Assembly: GCF_013155295.1 (NCBI RefSeq)
Contig: NZ_JABJXT010000002.1
Coordinates: forward strand, 1-64,000
Origin: Pseudogemmobacter hezensis
GTDB lineage: Bacteria > Pseudomonadota > Alphaproteobacteria > Rhodobacterales > Rhodobacteraceae
Direction of reading: 5' to 3'
DNA length: 64,000 nucleotides
Shown piece by piece: positions 44,595 through 52,538 of the stretch. The notes beneath the pieces are model-generated. The model was not told the origin of the DNA and ran no database searches. It was given only the letters and a program-made list of their open reading frames with translations. Position 1 is the stretch's first letter, and each line of letters opens with the position of its first letter. The position numbers and the translations under genes are program-made.

Positions 44595-45782
44595 TCAGTC
44601 GCCCATGAATTGCCGCCAGCGGCGCACCAGGTAATTGTGCTCGGGCATGATCGTTGACCAGACCGCGACCCGCGCCACCCGTGCCTGATAGCTGCCGCCC
44701 TCGCGCCGCTCGCCCTTATGGACGACAACCGTGCCGTCGCTGCCGGGCAAATCGGTGGCGGCGGTCTGGCCGTCATACCAATAGGCCCATTCCTGCGGGG
44801 TCAGCGTTTCGCGCAATGGCCCCGGCACCGAGATGTAATAGCCCTGCCGCGCCATGATCGCGCCCGGCATACCATCCAGCCACCAGTTCAGATAGGCATA
44901 GGCCATATCCAGCACCGCGCCGCTGGCCGCCGCCGAAAGGCACAGCCCCGAATGCCAGCCGCGATAACCCTCAGCCGGGGCCGCATAATGCAGCCGCCGC
45001 CCCTGCCCGCGCAGCGTATAACACGCCGGAGACCACATCGCCGAGATCATCGGCCCGCCACTCCCCGGCGCCATCATCAGCCGCACCGCATCATCCGAGG
45101 TCGCCCAGAACCGCGTGAAATGCCCCGCCCGGCGCAGCGGCATCAAGACCGCGAAAAGCGCGTCAATCTCTTCGATGGTCAGATCACCGGGATCCTGGAT
45201 CGCCACCAGCCCGGCGGCCCGCGCGGCCAGGGCCAGCTCGACCACACTGGCGGCCGGGTCGGCGGCCAGCGCGGTGCGCCCGTGCCAGCGCCCATCCAGC
45301 AGCCAGGCCCAGCTTTGCGCCTCATCCGGGGCAAGGCTGGCGGCCAGCTCTGGCGTGATGGCAAAGCTGTCGACGTTATAGGTGGTCGGCAGCATGGCGA
45401 TCTGCGGACGCTCGCCCAGCGGGCGCGGGCCAAGGCTGCGCCCGGGCTGCACGAACAGCAGATCACCGGGCCAGCTGCCTGAACGGGGCGAGGACGGGCG
45501 CGCACCGATGGGGGTTCCGGCCACAGTGACCTCTGGCCAGCGGGTGATCCGGGCCGTCTCGACCGGCTGGATCGAGGCCGCCGTCCAGAACAGATCCAGC
45601 GCGTGGAACCACTGGTCGCATACATCGAAACTGCCTGGCGACATCACCACGCGGCGCTGACAGTCCAGCCCATCCAGCGCCTCGAAAACGATGCGGAAGG
45701 GCAGATCCTGCTGCGCCCGCGCAGTCAGCGCCGGGATCAGCGTCGCCGGGGTGCCGATCACCCGCAAAACCGGCTCTGTCAT
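44595..45782 (-). CDS. Solute-binding-protein paralogue without export signal
   Basis: A 395-aa protein homologous along its length to the periplasmic binding protein at 47115-48407. Shared blocks include MWSPA, EGYRGW, YLNWWLDG, ARQGYY, EWAYWYDG, GGSYQAR and a C-terminal RRWRQFM. It begins MTEPVLRVIGTPATLIPALT, with a strong GAGGGGG site before the ATG and no hydrophobic or twin-arginine leader; the fold starts at residue 5. It should stay in the cytoplasm. It lies 10 bases after the GntR-type regulator on the same strand, so the two are co-expressed. A ligand-sensing partner role is inferred. Confidence 0.8.
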   Translation of the reverse strand: MTEPVLRVIGTPATLIPALTARAQQDLPFRIVFEALDGLDCQRRVVMSPGSFDVCDQWFHALDLFWTAASIQPVETARITRWPEVTVAGTPIGARPSSPRSGSWPGDLLFVQPGRSLGPRPLGERPQIAMLPTTYNVDSFAITPELAASLAPDEAQSWAWLLDGRWHGRTALAADPAASVVELALAARAAGLVAIQDPGDLTIEEIDALFAVLMPLRRAGHFTRFWATSDDAVRLMMAPGSGGPMISAMWSPACYTLRGQGRRLHYAAPAEGYRGWHSGLCLSAAASGAVLDMAYAYLNWWLDGMPGAIMARQGYYISVPGPLRETLTPQEWAYWYDGQTAATDLPGSDGTVVVHKGERREGGSYQARVARVAVWSTIMPEHNYLVRRWRQFMGD

Positions 45783-45792
45783 CGCGGCCCCC

Positions 45793-46854
45793 TCATGTTT
45801 CGGGCATCAGCCAGGGGGCCAGTAGCGGCGGTGGCAGCTGCGACAGCACCCGCAGCCGCGCCAGTGTCAGCGGCCCGATCCGCGTCAGATGAGCCGCCAG
45901 CAGAGCCTGCGCCGTGCCCGGCTCGTCATGGCGCAAATGGCGCAGGATCAAAGCGTAATCCTGCAGCGCCGCCAGATCGTCAACCAGCGGAAAATGCTGG
46001 CGAAACAGATGCGGCACCACCAGCGAAATCTGATTGCGCCGGATCGAGGCCAGCAGCCGCGAATTGCGAAGCCCGCCAAAAATCTGCTGAAACATCAGCT
46101 GATCCAGATCGTCCAGCGCCACCGGATCCACCGCCGGAAAGGCATCCATCACCCGCGCCAGCCGCGCCCCGGCCTGATCCAGCCAGTCCGGGTCCAGCCC
46201 CGGCTGCACCTGGGCCAGGGCCGCAGGCTCTAACAACAGCCGCATCTCAAGCGTTTCGCGCAGATCGCGGGCGGTCATCTGGCCGACGATCCAATGCGAT
46301 TTGCTGTCCTTGATCACAAGGCGGCGGTCCAGCAACCGCCAGAGCACCTCGCGTGCGACGGTGCGGCTGACGTGATAGTGGCGGCCAAGCGCCTCTTCCT
46401 GGATACGCCAGGAGCCAAAGGGCATCGCGGCGGTGATTTCCTCGCGCACATCTTCATAGATCCGCTCCCATGTGGCAGAGCGGTCGATTTCCTCTGGCTG
46501 CTCGGTCAGGATCCGGTGCAGCTGACGCAGCGGCATCCGCAGCGGCGCAGCCGTGCCCACCACATAACCCTGCCCGCCCGCCTGACGAATCAGCCCTTCA
46601 TCGGCCAGCAGCGCCAGCGCCCGGCGCACCGGGGCCCGGCTGACCCCCAGCTGCCCGGCAAGCTGCGCCTCTTTCATGACCAGCCCGGCCGGAAGCTCAT
46701 GGCTGGCGATTTTGCGCCGCAAAAGATCGCGCAGCGTCGCATAGAGGAAGGCCGGACGCCGCTGGCTGGCCCCGGCCCCGCCCCGCCCCCCGCCAGAAAG
46801 AGATCGGGCAGCAGGGGATTTGGCAGCGAAAGATTCGGCTGCGGGCTTCACCAT
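45793..46854 (-). CDS. GntR-family regulator with two winged-helix domains and an FCD-like domain
   Basis: A 353-aa regulator. A first GntR winged helix spans about 37-100 (FLYATLRDLLRRKIASHELPAG, AQLAGQLGVSRAPVRRALALLADEGLI). A second GntR-like unit spans about 129-191 (YEDVREEITAAMPFGSWRIQEEALGRHYHVSRTVAREVLWRLLDRRLV). An all-helical FCD-type effector domain (about 198-340) follows. Most GntR proteins have a single HTH. It diverges from the binding-protein/ABC operon with 260 bases between, and is followed by the signal-less binding-protein paralogue. It probably controls both units. Confidence 0.85.
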   Translation of the reverse strand: MVKPAAESFAAKSPAARSLSGGGRGGAGASQRRPAFLYATLRDLLRRKIASHELPAGLVMKEAQLAGQLGVSRAPVRRALALLADEGLIRQAGGQGYVVGTAAPLRMPLRQLHRILTEQPEEIDRSATWERIYEDVREEITAAMPFGSWRIQEEALGRHYHVSRTVAREVLWRLLDRRLVIKDSKSHWIVGQMTARDLRETLEMRLLLEPAALAQVQPGLDPDWLDQAGARLARVMDAFPAVDPVALDDLDQLMFQQIFGGLRNSRLLASIRRNQISLVVPHLFRQHFPLVDDLAALQDYALILRHLRHDEPGTAQALLAAHLTRIGPLTLARLRVLSQLPPPLLAPWLMPET

Positions 46855-47007
46855 TGGCCGGAAATCCTGTGCAACAGATTAAAAACTGAGCCTTCCTCGG
46901 TGTTTATCCGGAAAATCGCCCAAAAAACAGGCGACGATCTCGGGCAAACAACACATTCCGGCCGCTGAATCTCTTTTTACACTATAAAATTGTGCATTGC
47001 ATCCGAA

Positions 47008-47114: not shown

Positions 47115-48407
47115 ATGACAACCAGGACCAGCAAAACCGGCGTCAGCCGGCGCGACTTTCTGAAAACCTCGGCGGCGGGGGCCGGTGCGGCTGTGGGATC
47201 AGGGATCCTTGGCGCACCGATGATCTGGGCACAGACCATCAAAGACATCACGCTGAACCAGGTGGGGCCGTCCTATTCGGTGATCGGCGACATCTGTGAA
47301 AAGGCCTCGGCCGATCTGGGCTTTAAGATCGTGCCGCAAACCGCGGACAGCACCCAGCTGATGGCCAAGGTGGTGAACCAGCCCGAAACCATCGACATTG
47401 CCGATCTGGAATTCTGGGCGATGCAGAAGATCTGGCGCTCGGGTCAGCTGCAGCCGGTCGAGGTGAACAGGATCGCCAAATGGGGCGATATCACCCCGGT
47501 GATGAAGGACGGGAAGAACTTCGACGGCTCCGCCCAGTCGATGCAGGGCACGACGCCGATCAAGGTGATGTATACGGGCGGCGCGGGTGACACTACATTT
47601 GCCGCGTCGGCCACCGATTTCGCCACCACGCTGCCCACCATCTTCAACGCCGATACCGTGGGCATCCGCCCCGATCTGATCGGCCGCCCCGTCGACAGCT
47701 GGGGAGAGCTGTTCAACCCCGAGTTCAAGGGCAAGACCGCGCTGGTCAATATCCCGCAGATCGGGATCATGGACGCCGCCATGGCGATGGAGGCTCTGGG
47801 CGAGCTGACCTATGGCGACAAGGGCAATATGACCCGCGAAGAGATCGACGCCACCATCAACCGCCTGATCGGGCTGAAGAAAGACGGCCAGTTCCGCGCC
47901 TTCTGGTCGACCTTCGACGAATCGGTCAACCTGATGGCGGGCGGCGAGGTGGTGATCCAGTCGATGTGGTCGCCCGCCGTCACGGCCGTCAAATCGCGCG
48001 GCACCGCCTGCGTCTATCAGGGGCTGAAAGAGGGCTATCGTGGCTGGGGCCTGGGCATGGGCCTGATGAGCCATCTTGAGGGGATCAAGCTGGAAGCGGC
48101 CTATGAATATCTGAACTGGTATCTCTCGGGCTGGCAGGGCGCGTTCATTGCACGCCAGGGCTATTACTCCTCGGTGCTTTCGACCACGAAAGAGCAGCTG
48201 ACGGCCAATGAATGGGGCTATTGGTATGAGGGCAAGGCCGCGACCGAGGACATTCTCGACCCCTACGGCGCGGTGATGGACAAGGCAGGCGCAGTGCGCG
48301 ACGGCGGCTCTTTCGAGGCGCGGATGGGCCATGTCGCCTGCTGGAACACCGTCATGGATGAAGAGCGCTACATGGTGCAGCGCTGGAACGAGTTCGTCTC
48401 GTCGTGA
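47115..48407 (+). CDS. ABC transporter solute-binding protein, Tat-exported
   Basis: A 430-aa PotD-like extracellular solute-binding protein. The N-terminus is a twin-arginine signal, VSRRDFLKTSAAGAGAAVGSGILGAPMIWAQT, so it is exported folded. The mature protein follows the spermidine/putrescine-type binding fold (EEIDATINRLIGLKK, VIQSMWSPAVTAVK). The ligand is unknown; related transporters carry polyamines, opines or other amines. It starts the operon that runs to 53490, and a hairpin after it may raise its transcript level above the permeases. A signal-less paralogue lies at 44595-45782. Confidence 0.92.
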   Translation: MTTRTSKTGVSRRDFLKTSAAGAGAAVGSGILGAPMIWAQTIKDITLNQVGPSYSVIGDICEKASADLGFKIVPQTADSTQLMAKVVNQPETIDIADLEFWAMQKIWRSGQLQPVEVNRIAKWGDITPVMKDGKNFDGSAQSMQGTTPIKVMYTGGAGDTTFAASATDFATTLPTIFNADTVGIRPDLIGRPVDSWGELFNPEFKGKTALVNIPQIGIMDAAMAMEALGELTYGDKGNMTREEIDATINRLIGLKKDGQFRAFWSTFDESVNLMAGGEVVIQSMWSPAVTAVKSRGTACVYQGLKEGYRGWGLGMGLMSHLEGIKLEAAYEYLNWYLSGWQGAFIARQGYYSSVLSTTKEQLTANEWGYWYEGKAATEDILDPYGAVMDKAGAVRDGGSFEARMGHVACWNTVMDEERYMVQRWNEFVSS

Positions 48408-48464: not shown

Positions 48465-49337
48465 ATGTCCCGATCCTCTGGGCGGTCGTCGCCGCTGACC
48501 CCTTATCTGCAGGTTGCGCCGCTAGCACTGATCATGCTGGCGATGGTCGGCGTGCCGCTGATCACGGTGGTGCTGCTGAGTTTCTGGCAGTCGGATGGCA
48601 TCTCGATCTACCCCGAGTTCACCTGGGCAAATTACGCCCAGGTGCTGACCTCGCCGGTGACGCTGACGCTGTTTCTGAACACGCTGAAATATGCCGCGCT
48701 GACCCTGGTGGCGACGATCCTGATCGGCTTCACCTGCTCGTATTTCCTGGTCTTCCATGTGCGCAACCTGAAATGGCAGATCGGGCTGTTTTTGCTGTGC
48801 ACGATCCCGTTCTGGACATCCAATGTGATCCGCATGGTCAGCTGGATCCCGTTTCTGGGGCGTGAAGGCGTGTTCAACCAGGCGCTGATTTCAGCCGGGA
48901 TGATCGACCAACCGCTTGATATCCTGCTCTATTCTGACTTCGCGGTGGTCCTGACCTATATCCATCTGTTTACCCTGTTCATGATCGTGCCGATCTTCAA
49001 CTCGATGGCGAAGATCAATCCGAATCTGATCGAGGCCGCCCGCGATGCAGGGGCCTCGGGCTGGCAGATCCTGTGGACGGTGATCGTGCCGCTGTCGCGG
49101 ACCGGGATCGCGCTTGGTTCGATCTTTGTGGTGACGCTGGTGATGGGCGACTTCTTCGTCGTGCGGGTGATGAGCGGCGGGCAAAGCGCCTCTGTCGTCT
49201 CGGCGATGAAAAACCAGATTGATCAGCTTTTCTATCCCGAGGCCGCGGCCATGGCGGTGCTGCTGATCGTCGTCGTGCTGCTGATGGTTTCAGCGATCCT
49301 GCGGATTGTCGACATCCGCTCTGAACTGGCGAAGTGA
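48465..49337 (+). CDS. ABC transporter permease (PotB-like)
   Basis: A 290-aa inner-membrane permease with about six helices, starting MSRSSGRSSPLTPYLQVAPLAL. The EAA cytoplasmic loop is NPNLIEAARDAGASGWQILWTVIVPLSRTGI. VTLTLFLNTLKYAALTLVATILIGFTCSYFLVF and TIPFWTSNVIRMVSWIPFLGREG match the PotB branch. It forms a heterodimer with the following permease by inference. Its stop is seven bases before that gene. Confidence 0.93.
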   Translation: MSRSSGRSSPLTPYLQVAPLALIMLAMVGVPLITVVLLSFWQSDGISIYPEFTWANYAQVLTSPVTLTLFLNTLKYAALTLVATILIGFTCSYFLVFHVRNLKWQIGLFLLCTIPFWTSNVIRMVSWIPFLGREGVFNQALISAGMIDQPLDILLYSDFAVVLTYIHLFTLFMIVPIFNSMAKINPNLIEAARDAGASGWQILWTVIVPLSRTGIALGSIFVVTLVMGDFFVVRVMSGGQSASVVSAMKNQIDQLFYPEAAAMAVLLIVVVLLMVSAILRIVDIRSELAK

Positions 49338-49344
49338 GGGTCTG

Positions 49345-50181
49345 ATGGCACAGGCAACCCAGAAACGCGGCGTCGGCTTTTACCTGCTGGCAGCATTTTT
49401 CGCGCTGTTCGTGATCTTTCTTTACGGGCCGATGCTGGTGATTTTCGTGCTCAGCTTTCAGGGACCGTCGGGGGGGCTGACCTTTCCGATGCGCGGTGTC
49501 TCGACCCATTGGTTCAACGATCTCTGGACCTCGACGCGCTATGGCGATCTGGGCGGTGCCTTTCGCCGCTCGGTCATGCTGGGGGCGATGTCGCTGCTGA
49601 TCACCGCCGTGGTTTGCCTTTTCGCAGGGCTGGCCTTTCGCAAGCGGTTCATCGGGGCGGGCCCGCTGTTCTATCTGGCGATCACCAGCCTGGTCGTGCC
49701 CGGGATCCTGCTTGGCCTTGGCATTTCCCAGCTTTTCCAGATGCTTGGATTCCGTCTACACTGGTGGCTGTCAGGGCTGGGGGCGCACCTTAGCTGGACG
49801 CTGCCTTTCGGCCTTTTGATCATGTTCGCCGTCCTGAACCGCTTTGACAGCTCCTGGGAAGAGGCCGCCCGTGACGCGGGCGCAAGCCCCTGGCAGACCC
49901 TGCGCTATGTCACGGTGCCAATTCTGTTCCCGGGCCTGATCGCAGTCGCCCTGTTCGGCTTCACCCTTTCCTATGACGAGATGCCGCGTTCTTTGCTGAC
50001 GGTTGGTGGCCGCAATACCCTGCCGATCGAGATCTCGAATATGACAACAAATGTCACGACGCCCGCGCTTTACGCCATTGGCACTGTCACCTCGGTGATC
50101 AGCTTTGCGGTCATCGCGCTGGCCTTCGCCGGCATCGCCCTTATCCAAAAACGCCGAGCCCGCGCCAAGCGAGGAGCCTGA
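49345..50181 (+). CDS. ABC transporter permease (PotC-like)
   Basis: A 278-aa permease with six helices. FALFVIFLYGPMLVIFVLSFQGPSGGLTFPM opens it, and the EAA loop is SWEEAARDAGASPWQTLRYVTVPILFPGLIAVALFGFTLSYDEMPRSLL, typical of PotC. GTGAGGG precedes ATG 49345; the frame to 49306 overlaps the upstream gene. The C-terminus ends in a basic cytoplasmic tail. The ATPase gene follows after two bases. Confidence 0.93.
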   Translation: MAQATQKRGVGFYLLAAFFALFVIFLYGPMLVIFVLSFQGPSGGLTFPMRGVSTHWFNDLWTSTRYGDLGGAFRRSVMLGAMSLLITAVVCLFAGLAFRKRFIGAGPLFYLAITSLVVPGILLGLGISQLFQMLGFRLHWWLSGLGAHLSWTLPFGLLIMFAVLNRFDSSWEEAARDAGASPWQTLRYVTVPILFPGLIAVALFGFTLSYDEMPRSLLTVGGRNTLPIEISNMTTNVTTPALYAIGTVTSVISFAVIALAFAGIALIQKRRARAKRGA

Positions 50182-50183
50182 AT

Positions 50184-51299
50184 ATGTCCGATCTCAGCCG
50201 TATCGATATCCAATCCGTTACCAAACTTTATGGAACCGCCAGGGCCGTCAACAATGTGGATCTGGTGATTGAGGGGGGCTCTTACTGCTGCATGATCGGC
50301 CCCTCGGGGTGTGGTAAAACCACGCTCTTGCGGATGATTGCCGGCCATGAAGAGCCTTCCTCGGGCATGATCAAAATCGGTGGTCAGGATGTCACCCATG
50401 CAAAAACAGGCAATCGTGGAACGGCGCTTATGTTCCAGAACTATGCCCTGTTTCCGCATCTGTCCCTGACCGACAACGTCGCCTTTTCTTTGCGCATTAA
50501 AGGGATTGCTACTGACACCCGCCGCCAGAATGCGCGAGAGATGCTTGAGCGTGTGCAGCTTGGCCACCTGGCCGACCGCCTGCCATCAGAGCTGTCCGGC
50601 GGCCAGCAGCAGCGTGTTGCCCTCGCCCGAGCGCTGATCACCAACCCAAAGGTCCTTCTCCTGGACGAGCCGCTTTCCGCGCTGGATGAATTCCTGCGCC
50701 TGCGGATGCGGGTCGAGCTGAAACGGTTGCAAAATGAGCTTGGCATCACCTTCATTCACGTCACTCACACCCAGCCAGAGGCAATTGCCCTGGCTGATCA
50801 GGTTGTCGTTATGGACCACGGCCTGATCGAACAGGCCGCTTCCCCGCATGATATCTACAACCACCCGCACAGCCCCTATGTTGCCCGCTTCATGGGGGGG
50901 CAGAATGTGCTGACCGGCACCGTCAGCAGCACCTCTGGCGACACGGCAATCGTCACCAGCGCAGCAGGTGTCAGCTATGACCTTCCATCAGCGCCCGGCG
51001 TTGTTCAGGGCGCCGAGATTCGCTTTTCCGTCCGCCGTGATCGCATCCAGGTGATCCCCGCCCCCGCCGCACGAAACGGGCTGACGGGAAAGGTGATCAA
51101 TACCGAGTATCAGGGCACTTTCGTCAAAGTGGCCCTGGATACCGGATCACGCGAAGAATTCATCATCTACATGCCCGATGACACCTGGTTCGCGCGCCCG
51201 ATCGAAATCGGCGAAACCATTCATGCCAGCTGGCAGCCCGCCACAAGCCACCACCTCAAAGGCACGAACAATTCAACCGGAACGCCCCTCGAAGACTGA
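50184..51299 (+). CDS. ABC transporter ATP-binding protein (PotA-like)
   Basis: A 371-aa ATPase. It has Walker A MIGPSGCGKTTLLRMIAG, the signature ELSGGQQQRVALARALI, Walker B LLLDEPLSALDEFLRLRMRVELK and the switch His in FIHVTHTQPEAIAL. A C-terminal TOBE domain (about 280-355) is typical of the polyamine/CUT1-type ATPases. It follows the permease by two bases and precedes the deacetylase-like gene by 26 bases. Its base composition is a little lower in GC than the permeases. Confidence 0.95.
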   Translation: MSDLSRIDIQSVTKLYGTARAVNNVDLVIEGGSYCCMIGPSGCGKTTLLRMIAGHEEPSSGMIKIGGQDVTHAKTGNRGTALMFQNYALFPHLSLTDNVAFSLRIKGIATDTRRQNAREMLERVQLGHLADRLPSELSGGQQQRVALARALITNPKVLLLDEPLSALDEFLRLRMRVELKRLQNELGITFIHVTHTQPEAIALADQVVVMDHGLIEQAASPHDIYNHPHSPYVARFMGGQNVLTGTVSSTSGDTAIVTSAAGVSYDLPSAPGVVQGAEIRFSVRRDRIQVIPAPAARNGLTGKVINTEYQGTFVKVALDTGSREEFIIYMPDDTWFARPIEIGETIHASWQPATSHHLKGTNNSTGTPLED

Positions 51300-51325: not shown

Positions 51326-52228
51326 ATGGCAAAAAAAATCTACTGCACCTTTGGCACCGATATTGATTCGGTTGCGGGCTGGATCGGATCCTATGGCGGG
51401 GGCGACAGCCCCTCAGACATTCAGCGCGGCATTTTCGCAACCGAAGTCGGCATCCCCCGGCTGCTGCGCCTGTTCAAAAAATACGATCTCCAGACCAGTT
51501 TTTTTATTCCGGGCCATTCGCTGGAAACCTTTCCGAAAGAAATGCGGATGATTGTGGATGCAGGCCATGAGGTGGGCGCCCACGGCTATCTGCATGAAAA
51601 CCCGATTGCCATGACACCACAGCAAGAGGAGGATGTTCTCGTCAAATCAATCGAGCTGATCGACAAACTAACCGGCCGCCCGCCACGCGGCTATGTTGCC
51701 CCATGGTGGGAAATGTCGAACTCGACGGCGGCTTTGCTGCAAAAATACAATTTCAGCTATGATCACAGCCAGGGCTATCGCGACTTTCAGCCTTTCTACG
51801 CTCGTGTCGGTGATGAATGGAATGTCATCGACTATACAAAGCAGGCGAAGGATTGGATGCATCCGCTGAAACACGGCACAGAGATCGACCTCGTCGATAT
51901 CGCTGCGAACTGGTATGTCGACGACCTGCCGCCCATGATGTTTATGAAGAAGTCGCCCAACAGCCATGGCTTTGTAAACCCGCGCGATATTGAAGAGCTC
52001 TGGCGTGATCAGTTCGACTGGGTCTACCGGGAAATGGATTATGCGGTCTTCGCCTTTACTATCCATCCGGATGTGGCGGGCCGGCCGCAGGTTCTGCTGA
52101 TGCTGGAACGCCTGATTGAATACATCAACGGCCATGAGGGGGTTGAATGGGCCACCTTCGAGCAGATCTCCGACGATTTCCGCAAGCGTTATCCGTTTGA
52201 AAGCGGCAGACGCCCGGAAGTGATCTGA
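51326..52228 (+). CDS. Polysaccharide-deacetylase-family amidohydrolase (PuuE/PgdA-like)
   Basis: A 300-aa cytoplasmic NodB-fold hydrolase without signal peptide. Probable metal ligands Asp14 (TDIDS), His86 and His90 (HGYLHE) have the D-HxxxH spacing of the HpPgdA/PuuE branch, whose members act on amides, including cyclic ureides such as allantoin, rather than on chitin-like polymers. [19 protein letters not shown] and [24 protein letters not shown] are further family segments. Within an ABC operon it probably hydrolyses the imported compound. A role on polysaccharide is unlikely in the cytoplasm. Confidence 0.85.
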
Positions 52229-52244: not shown

Positions 52245-52538
52245 ATGTGCTCTGCCTGTGGCTATCCCAGTCGGCCAGGACATTGGACCGATGCAGGCGC
52301 GGTCTCCGCAGGCGACAGATTGCGCCTGCGGTACACACGCGTCGCGGCGATCAACCGCTTGCTAGCCCCCTATGGGCTGAAAGCCTATGATGACGGCGCC
52401 ACACCAGGCCTGCAACTCATCGCATCAGGCGGTGCGACTGAACTGGTGGCCGACCTGGAGGGCCTGTGGCAGGCGGCGGCCCGGATCGCAGGCAGGCCAA
52501 TTGATCCGCTGGACGCCCGGGTCCTGTCAGATGTCTGA
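52245..52538 (+). CDS. Small CxxC protein linked to a CobW GTPase
   Basis: A 97-aa protein starting MCSACGYPSRPGHWTDAGA, with a CxxC pair and a nearby His that could bind a metal, followed by a hydrophilic domain ending DPLDARVLSDV. I know of no assigned function. It overlaps the next gene by eight bases, so the two are translationally coupled, as expected for partner proteins. A role in metal delivery to, or sensing for, the amidohydrolase or the GTPase is plausible but unproven. Confidence 0.72.
   Translation: MCSACGYPSRPGHWTDAGAVSAGDRLRLRYTRVAAINRLLAPYGLKAYDDGATPGLQLIASGGATELVADLEGLWQAAARIAGRPIDPLDARVLSDV

Follow-up and report, generated by a model that had tools for sequence, protein, structure and literature searches.

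A binding protein without an export signal is encoded beside a GntR-family regulator with two winged helices in Pseudogemmobacter hezensis, and this arrangement is real and well conserved. Sequence comparisons suggest that the binding protein is probably the cytoplasmic ligand-sensing subunit of the regulator. Solute-binding proteins (SBPs) normally capture nutrients outside the cell; this one lacks a signal, is kept inside the cell, has evolved together with a GntR protein and probably serves as a nutrient sensor detached from the regulator. The locus lies in a 64,000-nucleotide stretch of contig NZ_JABJXT010000002.1 (positions 1 to 64,000; the window). We refer to the signal-less protein as the twin and to the regulator as GntR2.

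Gene arrangement in the window

The features of the locus are as follows.

44595..45782, minus strand: signal-less PotD/PotF-fold binding protein (the twin), 395 residues; open reading frame, 34% identical to the exported SBP, own clade
45793..46854, minus strand: GntR regulator (GntR2), two winged helices and an FCD domain, 353 residues; Pfam GntR twice and FCD
46558..46746, minus strand: first winged helix of GntR2, residues 37-99; best stretch of Pfam PF00392
46279..46467, minus strand: second winged helix of GntR2, about residues 130-192, with limits inferred from two Pfam stretches and an alignment
45883..46257, minus strand: FCD domain of GntR2, residues 200-324, triad F, Y, H; Pfam PF07729 and triad columns
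46991..47004, no strand assigned: TGTGCATTGCATCC, conserved block, candidate promoter/operator; comparison of divergent regions
47115..48407, plus strand: Tat-exported SBP_bac_8 binding protein of the ABC operon; Pfam, NCBIfam
48465..49337, plus strand: ABC permease, PotB-like; Pfam, NCBIfam
49306..50181, plus strand: ABC permease, PotC-like; Pfam, NCBIfam
50184..51299, plus strand: ABC ATPase with TOBE domain; Pfam, NCBIfam
51326..52228, plus strand: CE4-fold hydrolase, HP0310/PgdA-like; Pfam, PDB 3qbu (E 4.7e-145)
52245..52538, plus strand: small conserved ORF, 97 residues; 66% to its homologue in locus L034
52387..53490, plus strand: CobW-family GTPase; Pfam; true start probably near 52531, because the first codons as listed overlap the small ORF

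Both minus-strand genes are intact, and their coordinates place the twin ATG 10 bases after the GntR2 stop, as the first-pass annotation had described. They are separate open reading frames, and the SBP and the DNA-binding domain are not one chain. A ribosome-binding site (AGGGGG), also claimed earlier, stands 5 nt 5' of the twin ATG. The pair diverges from an operon that encodes, in order, the exported SBP, the permeases, the ATPase, the CE4 hydrolase, the small ORF and CobW. The small ORF, which had no match in a Pfam scan, lies between the CE4 and CobW genes in many related operons as well.

Among 16 divergent regions from operons of the window's type, 12 contain the TGTGCATTGCATCC block with 0-2 mismatches; in this set, the L055 region is N-masked and the L063 and L065 SBP starts were chosen inside the gene. 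Within the block, TTGCAT is a possible -35 box for the SBP operon. The block does not occur beyond chance in front of 14 GntR2 genes that belong to other operons, and an operator common to different operon types was rejected on that basis.

The twin has the fold of a transport SBP and no export signal

The twin and the exported SBP align over their full length (139/404 identical, 34% over 404 columns; E 7e-83), and the homology first proposed between them is thus borne out. The AlphaFold2 model of the twin has a pLDDT of 94, and its best PDB matches in Foldseek are PotD, PotF and YdcS (E about 1e-17); a profile of the twin also aligns to the YdcS, PotF and PotD entries in the PDB. The twin therefore has the fold and sequence family of ABC-importer SBPs of the PotD/PotF type but lacks their export signal. 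Linkage to ABC permeases is not conserved in the twin clade, and the window's ABC operon has its own exported SBP.

The exported SBP (47115) carries a Tat signal by both Pfam PF10518 and TIGR01409, each above its cut-off, and neither model matches the twin. Upstream of the twin ATG, the frame contains only 8 sense codons before it meets a stop, so an upstream start cannot add a signal. The absence of a signal in the original annotation, and of an upstream start that would restore one, therefore holds in the window. It also holds more widely. We inspected 80 loci, drawn with twin-biased peptide patterns as the best 80 of 501 coding stretches of named genomes, among which Paracoccus and Pseudogemmobacter loci are nearest to the window's. 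No signal was visible within 45 residues of upstream open frame in 78 of these best 80, as judged by eye from an RR-motif search and a hydropathy print-out; the two with a signal are from Glaciecola and Teredinibacter. A simple signal test (a basic pair and a hydrophobic stretch) was passed by 0/86 twins, 13/16 and 47/54 exported SBPs, and 13/16 proteins of the sister branch described below, with trimmed starts used for L105 and L116. For twins, starts were sought no more than 28 codons from the core, against 60 in the case of exported SBPs. The shortness of the twin N-termini in this test is thus partly built in; the inspection of 45 residues of open frame is the freer check.

The twin belongs to a separate lineage, and its sister branch is encoded beside signalling genes

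A tree of 82 rows, obtained after dropping 18 that were mostly close relatives of kept rows, separates three groups: the signal-less proteins (45 rows, 97/94), the exported transport SBPs (25 rows, 99/99) and gammaproteobacterial relatives (12 rows, 100/100). In a quick tree of 81 hand-chosen rows, the third group, represented by two rows only, is sister to the signal-less group, and the two are joined at 99. The separate clades indicate that the twin represents a lineage of its own and of old standing, and that 'twin' is a loose name for the signal-less protein. A recent duplication of the operon's SBP is rejected by both trees, and the earlier implication that the twin was copied from the binding protein of its operon was mistaken.

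To extend the third group, we searched the orders to which the Glaciecola and Teredinibacter genomes belong; 8/148 and 13/145 genomes, both start genomes included, matched at E <= 1e-60. Nineteen new loci were fetched: 14 belong to the sister branch, one is a signal-less twin operon (L208) and four are exported transport operons. In all 14 sister-branch loci, a sensor gene, either a sensor kinase or a GGDEF protein, lies directly downstream of the SBP gene, and no match to the window permeases at E <= 1e-6 was found in the 15-16 kb fetched around each. Pfam analysis of 11 of the 16 sister-branch partners (9 new and 2 original) identified hybrid histidine kinases (L105, L116, L202, L203, L213, L214, L215), proteins with a kinase domain (L206, L207, L212) and one HAMP-GGDEF protein (L216); the other five partners were assigned through BLAST to the first two kinases. 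The curated Tat model, applied to 10 sister-branch proteins, gave sub-threshold matches in three and none above the cut-off. Because that model is below cut-off or absent, export of the sister branch rests on the visible N-termini. A dedicated signalling partner, as in SBP-dependent sensor pairs, is thus found in both branches: GntR2 in the signal-less branch and histidine kinases or GGDEF proteins in the exported one. The loci of the sister branch (L202-L207, L209-L216, L105 and L116) appear to be a family of sensor pairs in which an SBP is combined with interchangeable outputs.

The twin and GntR2 occur together

Among 295 genomes of the same family, 90 match the twin at E <= 1e-10, and 10 of them stand apart (E <= 3.2e-91; next best match 1.1e-76). 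A GntR2 profile matches 19/295 at E <= 1e-30, and its ten best genomes (E <= 1.5e-83) are exactly the 10 with a clear twin. Among the other nine, G216 carries a GntR gene next to a twin that is truncated where the contig ends. Partial twin matches in G158, G159, G165 and G242 were left out of the twin count. In G242, which has no GntR2 match, a 242-residue ORF beside a urease gene (L051, 6252-6980) matches the twin's C-terminal part with 45% identity across 111 residues and is perhaps a remnant of a twin gene.

We also hand-chose 33 rhizobial-type loci and 8 plasmid loci (from 63 records). GntR2 was found at E <= 1.3e-102 in 31 of the 32 rhizobial-type genomes searched, and each of the eight plasmid loci has both a twin without a signal and a GntR of this type. 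The pair thus recurs in 10/10, 31/32 and 8/8 members of these sets, where its absence from other genomes would have spoken against the first-pass proposal. The exception is a plasmid of Rhizobium sp. RCAM05350 (G700, L112), in which the twin and an amidase were recognised and the rest of the operon was not; no GntR2 match at E <= 1e-30 was found among the 65 of 75 candidates scored in that genome, and this twin is possibly a decaying copy.

In a class-wide search, 42/385 genomes matched the twin HMM at E 1e-80, and the window's own exported SBP was among the passing proteins. This threshold fails to part twins from exported SBPs, so only matches of at least 490 bits, the lowest score in the twin clade, were counted. 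Two genomes contain twins so defined, namely that of the window and G389, and GntR2 reaches E <= 1e-80 in these two alone; GntR2 matches at E <= 1e-30 occur in 7/385 genomes. The E cut-offs that part the GntR subfamilies were set after the scores were known, and the nearest twin-less match is at 3.6e-79, which is also the next best score. The genome profile searches scored part of the candidates in each genome (7/64 in one case), and misses are possible.

The layout of the operon varies around the pair. In Rhizobium johnstonii pRL12, the GntR gene is divergent from genes for an ATPase, two permeases, two SDRs, an exported SBP and an ATPase, followed by CE4, the small ORF, CobW, the twin and an amidase. 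In the common rhizobial operon, the GntR gene is at the far end, about 10 kb from the twin, and CobW and the amidase adjoin the twin. The two genes are adjacent in 28 loci and in four orientations: GntR then twin in 19 (the window, L054-L070 and L160), twin then GntR in five (L036, L041, L122, L129, L156), convergent in three (L039, L089, L173) and divergent in one (L162). Four plasmid loci, from Paraburkholderia, two Pantoea and Klebsiella (L156-L159), have an annotated MFS transporter where ABC genes otherwise stand, and in Leisingera (L161) an NCS1 transporter takes their place, with a separate ABC operon farther on; transporter-like ORFs of L155, judged by eye, were left out of this count. 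All these loci retain CE4, CobW, the twin and GntR. The MFS and NCS1 proteins are presumably the importers of their operons. The presence of the twin in these operons argues against a role as a second SBP of an ABC importer. The stretch fetched from A. rubi showed neither a CE4 nor a CobW gene around the GntR2-twin pair.

The twin diverges with GntR2 more than with the enzymes

Distances were compared in 30 loci that hold the twin, GntR2, CE4 and CobW, with some close relatives left out. Twin and GntR2 distances correlate at r 0.94, or 0.88 given CE4, and 0/2000 permutations reached as high a value. The correlations of the twin with CE4 (r 0.71) and CobW (r 0.74) fall to 0.08 and 0.06 given GntR2. 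CE4 and CobW correlate with each other at r 0.95. By the measure of these distances, the twin is part of a regulatory module with GntR more than of an enzyme module. Co-divergence can reflect co-inheritance.

The first-pass annotation had offered two roles for the twin, to modulate the regulator or to buffer the ligand or deliver it to the hydrolase. The first is favored by the co-occurrence with the GntR2 subfamily, by the co-divergence and by a sister branch that appears to be a sensor branch. The second, in which a cytoplasmic carrier would hand substrate to the CE4 hydrolase, an amidase or a CobW-dependent enzyme, we regard as unlikely. The order small ORF-CobW-twin is kept in rhizobial, Pantoea, Klebsiella and Paraburkholderia operons, with CobW and the twin close or overlapping, which speaks for a carrier. 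However, the divergence of the twin barely tracks CE4 or CobW once GntR2 is given, and neither gene was found near the A. rubi pair in the stretch fetched. Some correlation with CobW does remain in the 11 loci where GntR is distant from the twin: the raw correlations are 0.98 with GntR and 0.95 with CobW, and the partial values are 0.79 for GntR given CobW and 0.44 for CobW given GntR, so the contrast between the two is weaker there. We know of no precedent for a substrate carrier of the SBP fold.

The CE4 hydrolases of L036 and L041 are 83-90% identical to the window's, yet their twin/GntR pairs belong to a distant clade (between L041 and the window, the distances are 0.09 for CE4, 0.98 for the twin and 1.48 for GntR). 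This suggests that the regulatory module has been exchanged between operons.

The GntR2 regulator and its FCD triad

Pfam finds two PF00392 stretches and one FCD domain in GntR2, in agreement with the double helix-turn-helix (HTH) first assigned to it, and residues from F146 to W188 of the second winged helix include invariant positions in an 18-row alignment. By its winged helix and FCD domain, GntR2 is an FCD-type GntR. The three FCD histidines are presumably the metal/effector site; in the window protein they are F, Y and H, so two of the three metal-type histidines are replaced. We aligned 43 twin-linked, 15 twin-less double-HTH and 5 single-HTH GntRs. The triad is intact in 15/15 of the twin-less proteins, 5/5 of the single-HTH controls and 12/42 of the twin partners, a count that excludes the truncated L171 and includes two rows from one contig (L034 and L061). 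The 12 partners with an intact triad may sense alone. The twin-linked GntRs form one group against the 15 twin-less ones (aLRT 92). The loss of the full triad amounts to two events on this tree, so its association with the twin is suggestive rather than strong.

The double winged helix itself was rejected as a hallmark of twin dependence, since 15 double-HTH GntR loci have no twin-clade gene within the 12-18 kb fetched for each. In this set, a weak SBP match (E 1e-6) occurs at L177, and a twin is present elsewhere in genome G162. These twin-less double-winged-helix FCD GntRs (L163-L170, L172, L175-L180) are in several cases encoded beside SDR genes.

Pocket residues and the probable ligand

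In PotF, the aspartates D247 and D278 presumably bind the polyamine. A profile alignment places A248 and S278 of the twin in these columns, and the exported SBP has L in the second; the twin thus lacks the acidic residues of a polyamine site. Twins and exported SBPs both conserve W250, R274, W276 and Y316; the last three are common to all exported relatives, and Q57 is common to twins and the sister branch. In contrast, H60 (93% of 45 twins), D63 (91%) and N383 (100%) are all but absent from the other two groups. R387 is invariant in twins and also occurs in 36% of exported SBPs.

The twin-specific H60, D63 and N383 would fit an enzyme built on the binding-protein fold that acts on a pathway intermediate. 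Such enzymes exist (MqnA, MqnD, THI5 and HemC), the twin is cytoplasmic and encoded within a catabolic operon, and the profile alignment pairs H60 with residue 87 of PotF, which is changed in pocket variants of that protein according to PDB titles. Nevertheless, R274, W276 and Y316 are common to exported relatives and Q57 to the sister branch, the twin co-diverges with a regulator, and the sister branch pairs with signalling proteins. An enzymatic role is therefore improbable in our view, and a sensing role for the twin remains the preferred reading.

The operon neighbours include genes of CE4, asparaginase/amidase, and hydantoinase or oxoprolinase types, named by eye from translations, carried over by BLAST and partly taken from record annotation. 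They suggest that the ligand is a cyclic amide, imide or ureide. The operon hydrolase, earlier called an amidohydrolase, does not belong to that superfamily: it has the CE4/polysaccharide-deacetylase fold and is closest to Helicobacter pylori HP0310/PgdA (E 4.7e-145). A published study reports no activity of HP0310 on the typical polysaccharides, acetylated amines or allantoin tested; it places HP0310 homologues near polyamine importers and proposes a small-molecule substrate (PMC3084791). The operon context, as read from the sequence, argues for a small cyclic amide or imide as the substrate of the CE4 hydrolase, and not peptidoglycan.

Discussion

Our analysis suggests a mechanism in which the twin is a cytoplasmic SBP of a lineage devoted to sensing rather than transport. 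The twin would bind a small molecule imported or made by the operon, probably a cyclic amide, imide or ureide. Its bound or free state would be relayed, presumably through physical contact, to the double-winged-helix GntR2 encoded next to it, and GntR2 would in turn control the divergent import-and-hydrolysis operon. We consider it possible, though short of probable, that a lineage of periplasmic receptors lost its signal and became a detachable, cytoplasmic sensing subunit of a GntR whose own effector pocket decayed more than once. A one-component regulator would thereby have been split in two, while the exported sister would still work through membrane kinases and cyclases.

It is very unlikely that the twin is a passive passenger of operon co-inheritance with no role tied to GntR. 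The genes of the operon are co-inherited, and CE4 and CobW also co-diverge (r 0.95). However, the twin is widely conserved (78 signal-less of the best 80 of 501), has many invariant residues and is linked to GntR2 more than to CE4 or CobW. That the twin is a transport SBP with a missed signal or another exit route is, despite the shared fold and family, exceedingly improbable, given the 8 open codons upstream, the 78/80 open frames (best 80 of 501) without a visible signal, the 0/86 that pass the simple test and its retention in operons with MFS or NCS1 transporters in place of ABC permeases.

Keyword searches of open-licence PMC full text brought up no account in which an SBP that lacks a signal is coupled to a GntR. 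NspS, which we take to be PotD-like, senses beside a dedicated output protein in a similar manner, and the SBP of L216 likewise pairs with a HAMP-GGDEF protein. In Vibrio cholerae and Sinorhizobium meliloti, this polyamine-binding protein is reported to signal via MbaA, a c-di-GMP membrane protein (PMC9993111). NspS is periplasmic with a membrane output, whereas the twin is cytoplasmic and its output would be a GntR transcription factor. Escherichia coli PotD, an SBP of the same family, reportedly acts as a transcriptional inhibitor of the uptake operon to which it belongs (Antognoni et al. 1999); there the protein that acts on transcription is reportedly the transport protein itself, whereas the twin comes from a distinct lineage without a signal and is encoded together with a GntR. 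In regulators of the SgrR and Btr type, an SBP fold is the sensor of a cytoplasmic transcription factor in a single-chain fusion. These folds are fused to other DNA-binding domains, whereas the sensor and the GntR are separate proteins here. GntR2 resembles FadR/FCD regulators in having a winged helix and an FCD domain, but it has two winged helices and two of its three FCD histidines are replaced. LuxP-LuxQ and TorT-TorS combine a periplasmic binding protein with a hybrid histidine kinase, as does most of the sister branch, but their binding proteins are periplasmic and belong to other SBP families.

If the proposal is correct, many genes annotated as 'extracellular solute-binding protein' encode cytoplasmic sensors (78 of the best 80 of 501 coding stretches here are signal-less), and a family of transcription factors can be informed of its ligand by a binding protein on a different chain. 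A further use of the pair would be as a handle on the substrate of HP0310/PgdA-like hydrolases. H. pylori HP0310 goes by the name of 'peptidoglycan deacetylase', and the window hydrolase is very close to it (E 4.7e-145 to 3qbu).
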